Both the position numbers and the translations under genes were made by a program. This document shows, one piece after another, positions 2,807 through 25,784 of a stretch of 34,720 bases of DNA. This DNA is from Alphaproteobacteria bacterium (GTDB taxonomy: Bacteria; Pseudomonadota; Alphaproteobacteria; Rhizobiales; Xanthobacteraceae). The notes beneath the pieces were generated by a model, which worked only from the letters and a program-made list of their open reading frames with translations, was not told the DNA's origin and did not search any database. The stretch is taken from contig VAZM01000068.1 in assembly GCA_005883135.1 (NCBI GenBank), positions 1 through 34,720 on the forward strand, given 5' to 3'. Positions within the stretch are counted from its first letter, which is position 1; the number at the start of each line of letters is the position of its first letter.

Positions 2807-2974
2807 CTAGTGCCGCCGATTTGAAATTCCTGCGCCGTGTGCCGCAAGTCCGCCTCAGGAATTTCAAATCGAAAAGCGGCACTAGAATCATAGAGTTGCT
2901 AGTGCCCTTTGGTTTTCGAAGTTCGTGCCCGAGTGTGCCGCGCTGTATCACGAACTTCGAAAACCGGGCACTAG
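2807..2974. repeat. Dual-hairpin intergenic element, copy 1 (168 bp, CTAG...CTAG)
   Basis: Hairpin A 2807-2885 (CTAGTGCCGC-C-GATTTGAAATTCCTG / CAGGAATTTCAAATC-GAAAA-GCGGCACTAG), 13-nt linker AATCATAGAGTTG, hairpin B 2899-2974 (CTAGTGCCC-TTTG-GTTTTCGAAGTTCGTG / CACGAACTTCGAAAAC-C-GGGCACTAG). Differs at 4 of 168 positions from 25617-25784. Confidence 0.95.
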
Positions 2975-5283: not shown

Positions 5284-5467
5284 CGTCCTCATCCTGAGGA
5301 GCGCGCACGCGTGACGGTGCCGCCAACGCGACCAGGCGTGCGCGCGTCTCGAAGGATGAGGACGGGTCATTGGTCGCGCCCTCATGCTTCGAGACGCATC
5401 GCAGCGCGGTTCGGCTGCGGAAGCAATTTCGCTCGCGTCACGCTGCGATGCTCCTCAGCATGAGGGC
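5284..5467. repeat. Second-family dual-hairpin element
   Basis: Hairpin 1 5284-5364 (CGTCCTCATCCT-GAGGA-GCGCGCACGC / GCGTGCGCGC-GTCTCGA-AGGATGAGGACG). Hairpin 2 5378-5467 (GCCCTCATGCT-TCGAGAC-GCATCGCAGCG / CGCTGCGATGC-TCCTC-AGCATGAGGGC). Confidence 0.9.
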
Positions 5468-13404: not shown

Positions 13405-14968
<1,564 letters not shown>

Positions 14969-14974
14969 GTTCGG

Positions 14975-15140
14975 CTAGTGTCCCGATTCCGAAGTTCGCA
15001 TCATTGTGCTGCAGCCTCGTTTGCGAACTTCGGAATCAAAGGGACACTAGCAAACCTATGATTCTAGTGTGGTCTTTGGATTTGAAGTTCCTATGCGAGT
15101 TTGCTGCATATTCGTAGGAACTTCAAATCCACCACACGAG
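14975..15140. repeat. Dual-hairpin intergenic element, copy 3 (diverged, inverted)
   Basis: Hairpin 14975-15050 (CTAGTGTCCCGATTCCGAAGTTCGCA / TGCGAACTTCGGAATCAAAGGGACACTAG), 13-nt linker CAAACCTATGATT (reverse complement AATCATAGGTTTG), hairpin 15064-15140 (CTAGTGTGGTCTTTGGATTTGAAGTTCCTA / TAGGAACTTCAAATCCACCACACGAG). Confidence 0.93.
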
Positions 15141-24841: not shown

Positions 24842-25620
24842 GCATGTTCAAAGTTCGCGTCATTCCCTGTCTCGACGTCAAGGATGGCCGCGTCGTCAAG
24901 GGCGTCAAGTTTCTCGACCTGCGCGACGCCGGCGATCCTGTCGCGGCAGCGATCGCCTATGACGCGGCCGGCGCCGACGAGCTCACGTTTCTCGATATCA
25001 CGGCGAGCCACGAGAATCGCGGGATCATCCTCGATGTGGTGCGGCGCACCGCCGAGGCCTGCTTCATGCCGCTCACCGTGGGGGGCGGGGTGCGCACGGT
25101 CGAAGATATCCGCAACCTGCTCGCGTCCGGCGCCGACAAGGTGTCGATCAACACCGCAGCCGTTGCCCGACGCGCATTCGTAAAGGAGGCAGCGGAAAAA
25201 TTCGGTGACCAATGCATCGTCGTGGCGATCGATGCCAAGCGCGTCTCGAAGTCGGGAGAAAGCGAGCGTTGGGAAATCTTCACCCATGGCGGCCGCAATC
25301 CCACCGGCCTCGATGCCGTCGATTACGCGCGCGAAGTAGTGGCGCTCGGGGCCGGCGAAATCCTGCTGACCTCCATGGATCGCGACGGCACGAAACAGGG
25401 CTTGGACATCGCGCTCACCCGCGCCATTGCTGATGCGGTCCCCGTGCCGGTCATCGCCTCGGGCGGAGTGGGCACGCTGGAGCATCTTGTGGAGGGCATC
25501 CGCGATGGCCACGCTACGGCGGTCCTTGCCGCTTCCATCTTTCACTTCGGCGAGCACAGCATTTCCGAGGCGAAGCGGTACATGGCGCGTGCCGGCTTAC
25601 CGATGCGGCTCGATGCTTAG
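24838..25620 (+). CDS. hisF: Imidazole glycerol phosphate synthase cyclase subunit
   Basis: [77 protein letters not shown]. Confidence 0.98.
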
Positions 25621-25784
25621 TGCCGCCGATTTGAAATTCCTGCACCGTGTGCCGCAAGTCCGCATCAGGAATTTCAAATCGAAAAGCGGCACTAGAATCA
25701 TAGAGGTGCTAGTGCCCTTTGGTTTTCGAAGTTCGTGCCCGAGTGTGCCGCGCTGTATCACGAACTTCGAAAACCGGGCACTAG
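25617..25784. repeat. Dual-hairpin intergenic element, copy 2 (168 bp, TTAG...CTAG)
   Basis: Differs from 2807-2974 at only 4 positions: first base C/T, two loop positions, one linker position. All stem arms are otherwise identical. Confidence 0.95.

Follow-up and report, generated by a model that had tools for sequence, protein, structure and literature searches.

The stretch of alphaproteobacterial DNA analysed here, 34,720 nucleotides in all and referred to below as the window, contains three copies of an element built of two hairpins and a linker, 166-168 nt long in this window. The copies, and the parts into which the third can be divided, are as follows.

2807..2974, plus strand: copy 1 (type 1), the same two-hairpin element
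14975..15140, minus strand: copy 3 (type 2), whole element of 166 nt, running from CTCG to CTAG
15064..15140, minus strand: hairpin A of copy 3, with outer stem GTGTGG/CCACAC, inner stem GATTTGAAGTTCCTA, a 21-nt loop and an AAAG-type bulge on the linker side
15051..15063, minus strand: linker of copy 3, 13 nt, AATCATAGGTTTG, kept in most copies
14975..15050, minus strand: hairpin B of copy 3, with outer stem GTGTCCC/GGGACAC, inner stem GATTCCGAAGTTCGCA, a 21-nt loop and a TTT bulge on the linker side; its terminal arm matches the ends of IS630 elements
25617..25784, plus strand: copy 2 (type 1), inserted in a TTAG that includes the stop codon of hisF

Copy 3 is located between two co-oriented genes, and the purH start codon lies about 6 nt past its end (14966-14990). 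Transcribed from the upstream gene, hairpin B would lie over the likely purH ribosome-binding region. The insertion of copy 2 at the TTAG stop (25617-25620) leaves the length of the hisF reading frame unaltered. Another intergenic inverted repeat is found at 5284-5364 (CGTCCTCATCCTGAGGAG.../...CTCGAAGGATGAGGACG); it resembles a CGTC-type REP dimer.

A sequence-only reading of this DNA had placed a diverged third copy on the minus strand at 14975-15140, and these coordinates proved exact. The linker, the 21-nt loops, the A-rich and T-rich bulges and the arms quoted for copy 3 are also as it described them. The CTAG boundaries that it reported hold in general, but the outer end of hairpin A in copy 3 is CTCG. 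Copy 1 is 98% identical to copy 2 and 71% identical to copy 3. At least six inner-stem pairs had been described as replaced on both sides, and six are found by direct reading, two in hairpin A and four in hairpin B. When 47 pairs were scored between copies 1 and 3, nine had changed on both sides, all nine still paired, and a one-sided change occurred in one pair. The earlier proposal that pairing within each hairpin is kept while the sequence changes extends well beyond this locus, since the same behavior is seen across dozens of subfamilies.

The genome that holds the window as its contig 435 (G000) is a 5.88-Mb draft, 85% complete, with about 26 type-1 copies that are 92-100% identical to copy 1, plus other types. 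The type-1 copies were also found by BLAST, independently of structure. A recognisable copy is present in 17 of the 61 genomes searched (own genome counted), and at least 116 stretches matched when the pattern was scanned for in a single genome of each species. Loci for 85 pattern matches were read by script, and 57 contained the complete double hairpin; nearly all the others were elements truncated at a contig end or in partial decay, and one match, in Metabacillus, looks like chance. The relatives and the element hits are alphaproteobacterial. Hosts include Bradyrhizobium, Brucella, Mesorhizobium, Hyphomicrobium, Methylocystis, Nitrobacter, Rhodoplanes, Pseudolabrys, Phenylobacterium, Sphingobium, Novosphingobium, Acidiphilium, Devosia and Phyllobacterium, and one element is carried on Roseibium plasmids.

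All of these elements share an architecture. Each hairpin consists of an outer stem, a bulge of 2-5 nt on the linker side, an inner stem and a loop that is mostly 21-23 nt long, and the second hairpin repeats this plan in inverted orientation after a linker of 12-14 nt close to AATCATAGGTTTG. The stems amount to about 25 pairs in total, and all four stem feet are CTAG, a motif that lies inside the stem. Elements are 163-170 nt long, lack an internal transposase gene and occur as many near-identical dispersed copies. GANTC occurs in 153 of the 157 elements and lies in the arms of those read directly, and a GCNGC motif for which no function was found occurs in 234 of 306 loops, compared with a shuffled mean of 37. 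One genome, G073, has about 58 local copies; four-element tandem arrays with a period of 163 nt, in which neighbours have one CTAG in common, can be seen there at G073:C1:4279122-4279775.

The covariation in this family is real. In a diverse set of 32 copies, all less than 80% identical to each other, 98.1% of cells are paired, a value inflated by the copy detector, which demands paired arms and thereby also lowers the apparent rate of one-sided change. Double changes are found in 35 of the 50 pairs. Cells changed on both sides number 260, versus 63 in shuffles and at most 41 in slid structures, and the covariation score is 0.472, versus 0.144 for shuffles and no more than 0.096 for slid partners. 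A covariation test on a wider alignment had been suggested by the sequence-only reading as a check of its claim. Such a tree-aware test (our own implementation in R-scape style, with a tree-keeping null and 106 copies) found five significant column pairs out of 13,366, and all five are proposed pairs.

What kind of process produces such changes is indicated by the pairs that fail. On the canonical strand the broken pairs comprise 30 G-T and 29 A-C; in the larger set the counts are 19 A-C versus 15 G-T, and there is no strand bias. Selection on an RNA made from one strand would favour G-T, so the missing G-T excess is evidence against an RNA fold. Among the 32 copies wobble pairs are almost absent except at one stem-closing pair, and nearly all changes are jumps between Watson-Crick pairs, transversions included. 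The sequence-only reading had named a folded RNA as one functional form. Such an RNA might have a cellular role as part of a 3' UTR or between genes. In its favour are the strong covariation and the stability of the predicted folds, and copy 3, between its co-oriented genes, would be transcribed. However, copies are scattered over many unrelated loci and both strands, copy 2 is missing at an orthologous locus, and the terminal arms resemble insertion sequence ends. A search of Rfam gave nothing at the gathering score; at a permissive threshold there were weak matches below the cut-off, none of them credible. Selection on a folded RNA thus seems extremely improbable, and the covariation points to DNA transposition instead.

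A different account of the paired changes is mutational. Template switching during replication can copy one arm of a palindrome onto the other, and if this were the main source of the covariation no selection on the fold would be needed; the element would still be an IS630-type MITE. Homogenisation of inverted-repeat arms in this way has been documented (PMC8604942). The scarcity of wobble intermediates would be expected from it, as would the double changes that keep pairs even in young subfamilies (2, 4, 11 and 6, versus about 0.1 expected in each). Against it, the youngest families have more single-sided than double changes (type 1, 30 to 2; G073, 12 to 1), and the asymmetric A/T bulge persists, never having been homogenised away. 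Inversion of the loop is one by-product of template switching (PMC8604942), yet no inverted loop pairs were found versus 936 loop pairs in the same orientation. Persistence of the bulge and absence of loop inversions argue mildly against pure homogenisation. The sequence-only reading had itself put forward arm homogenisation as what would overturn its claim; the process is still compatible with the data, and the by-product predicted from it is absent. We consider a mainly mutational origin possible, if somewhat doubtful. Within subfamilies the inner and terminal arms are equally conserved (about 1-3% changed), and the loops are 5-24% changed. Arm identity is 98.0% within a hairpin versus 67.6% between the arms of A and B.

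The sites where the element is inserted have a characteristic sequence. CTAG is found at the right end of 97 of 111 copies and at the left end of 86 of 111. Some left ends are not CTAG (e.g., CGAG, CAAG) and show no clean TA duplication. In one case (C105) a type-3 copy sits inside a type-1 copy, at its CTAG, and the hisF site of copy 2 is empty in G002, where there is a single TTAG. Given the preference for CTAG and TTAG, TAG stop codons are natural targets. With ends of CTAG, a duplication of TA is difficult to distinguish from one of TAG or CTAG, and TA is lacking at some left ends; duplication of CTAG as a 4-bp target is disfavoured because the left and right ends are unlike. At other empty sites, searched for as concatenated flanks, most relatives are too diverged at the junction, and the one readable case (L005) is non-discriminating. 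IS630 elements insert at TA, duplicate it and prefer CTAG, as described in PMC2170065 and in the titles of papers cited there. The idea that half-hairpin hits mark an autonomous version, carrying a gene between hairpins A and B, was also followed and rejected: these hits comprise only solo hairpins, copies that are nested, and one unrelated insertion sequence. The last of these, probably an unrelated insertion at the hairpin A end of a type-4 copy, lies at about 598-2160 of L116 and is flanked by a 9-bp duplication, CTCCACTAG.

No DDE_3 gene was detected in the window's own genome (85% complete), and a partner was therefore sought in relatives. There, elements of the IS630 family with DDE_3, about 1.15-1.25 kb long, have CTAG-bounded ends that match the arms of the element. 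For example, one such element in G022 (L236, the same element as L253) is 1,213 nt long and encodes a 380-aa DDE_3/HTH protein; its ends are CTAGTGTCCTGAACCAGAAGTTCGCAACAT and CTAGTGTCCCGAGTCACAAGTTCGCAATCG. The L253/L254 end CTAGTGTCCCGAGTCATAAGTTCGCAACAT agrees with CTAGTGTCCCGATTCCGAAGTTCGCATCAT, the B arm of types 2 and 3, at 22 of 26 positions after CTAG. Ends of L260/L261 agree with Brucella-type arms at 21 of 26, and those of L257/L276 with Sphingobium/Roseibium-type arms at 21 of 26; the best of 200 shuffles reached 14-17 of 26. Different subfamilies of the element are thus matched by different IS630 lines. In G073 the match is between variants in the same genome: IS630 copies there end in CTAGTGTCCTGACTCTCAATTGCC and CTAGTGTTCCGTCTCGCAAATC, the arms of the approximately 58 local elements are CTAGTGTGGCGTCTCGCAATTGCC and CTAGTGTCCTGTCTCC, and both have an unusual GTCTCGCAA / CTC core. 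The terminal inverted repeats of the element therefore match those of IS630. DDE_3 genes were not found in several copy-rich genomes (G003, G016, G018), and among relatives the presence of DDE_3 does not track that of the element. Palindromic ends were not found in the IS630 elements themselves, which makes the doubled end a feature of the miniature element.

Head-to-head hairpins are also typical of REPIN-like palindrome pairs, which a Y1 (RAYT) transposase would mobilise in single-stranded form; a Y1 transposase is the enzyme named in a check suggested by the sequence-only reading. Such a route could accommodate the first base of the left CTAG, which varies more (10/111) than the last base of the right CTAG (3/111), and Y1 genes are present in several copy-rich relatives. 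There is, however, no Y1 hit in G000 or in copy-rich G016, G025 and G031, the Y1 genes of relatives lie beside other repeats or none, and the element flanks none of the 20 Y1 loci examined. The only match is one hairpin more than 1 kb from a Y1 gene in G003, a genome with many copies, and the arms of the element match the ends of DDE elements. After the search of the window's own and 60 related genomes and inspection of the loci, Y1/RAYT was rejected as the mobiliser; movement of this kind appears very unlikely. In G010, REP-like hairpins of the GCCCGGATTGAGCGCAGCGAAATCCGGG kind, unlike the element, occur near two Y1 genes, at the loci L167 (1958-2032) and L178 (1262-1346).

From sequence comparison, the element is very probably a non-autonomous IS630-type MITE with palindromically doubled ends, moved in trans by IS630-family transposases, a reading consistent with the observed architecture, covariation, lack of wobble bias, IS630-like ends, CTAG sites and nesting. 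End similarity suggests that transposases of this family (Tc1/mariner-type DDE enzymes) would mobilise it, with insertion at the TA within CTAG and, presumably, duplication of that TA. The left terminal arm corresponds to the left inverted repeat of IS630 elements, and the right arm to the right repeat; each is followed by a spacer of about 21 nt and then by its own inverted copy, giving a hairpin at each end, and the conserved linker of 12-14 nt joins the two. Covariation would then arise at the DNA level as the terminal arms diversify along with the transposase that reads them. The inner arm would track the terminal arm either because transposition depends on DNA in hairpin or cruciform form, or on a second binding site, or because template switching homogenises the arms of the palindrome.

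Several observations fit the MITE model poorly. DDE_3 hits are missing from the window's own genome and from several copy-rich ones, and left ends other than CTAG show no clean TA duplication. The non-palindromic ends of IS630 leave the origin of the inner arm unaccounted for, the 98.0% identity within hairpins (67.6% between A and B arms) exceeds what a shared binding site would by itself demand, and a simple terminal inverted repeat gives no account of the GCNGC loop motif. In a more specific proposal, an IS630/Tc1-mariner-type transposase line would read the ends in a folded DNA form, hairpin or cruciform, and would require the bulge and the GCNGC loop. We hold this to be unlikely; if true, base pairing itself, beyond the sequence of the arms, would be a recognition signal of a DDE transposition system. 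As for the sequence-only reading, its observation is confirmed and its interpretation partly supported.

Several known systems resemble the element. RUP of Streptococcus pneumoniae is an intergenic MITE with ends that match IS630-Spn1, a TA-containing target and about 100 copies that spread recently (PMC2229807). Intergenic location, IS630-matching ends and a TA-containing target are common to both, but RUP measures 107 bp and has a single terminal repeat of 9 bp, whereas the element has 166-168 nt, two long bulged hairpins, loops of about 21 nt and a conserved linker. The REP/REPIN sequences that go with RAYT (GTAG and CGTC families) form inverted hairpin pairs with a tetranucleotide tag and occur as dimers and clusters (PMC3733652). 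In all these respects they are like the element; however, their stems are 5-13 bp with an unpaired GTAG or CGTC tag, in contrast to bulged stems of about 25 bp with CTAG inside, and the element flanks no RAYT. IS630/ISY100 of the Tc1/mariner superfamily has a TA target and imperfect left and right ends (PMC2170065). It is autonomous, with one transposase gene and ends that are not doubled into hairpins, whereas the element is non-autonomous with doubled ends. CIR repeats of Caulobacter and Brucella are alphaproteobacterial and intergenic, and in them a linker connects two long inverted repeats (PMC2229807). At about 110 bp, with GANTC at the terminal loop, they differ from an element of 166-168 nt with CTAG at four stem feet and GANTC in the arms; length, and GANTC position where read directly, set the element apart from CIR as published. 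RIME of Rhizobium and Bru-RS of Brucella are intergenic elements with large palindromes. In a comparison by description, part of the family may already bear the name RIME, Bru-RS or CIR.

With its many copies, many subfamilies and paired arm changes, the family is a natural and very large test of palindrome evolution. It is also a clean example of strong covariation that does not imply RNA, and RNA-discovery pipelines can take such elements for structured RNAs. For the alphaproteobacteria, a widespread and apparently unnamed repeat is now tied to a candidate transposase family, which makes its mobility directly testable.
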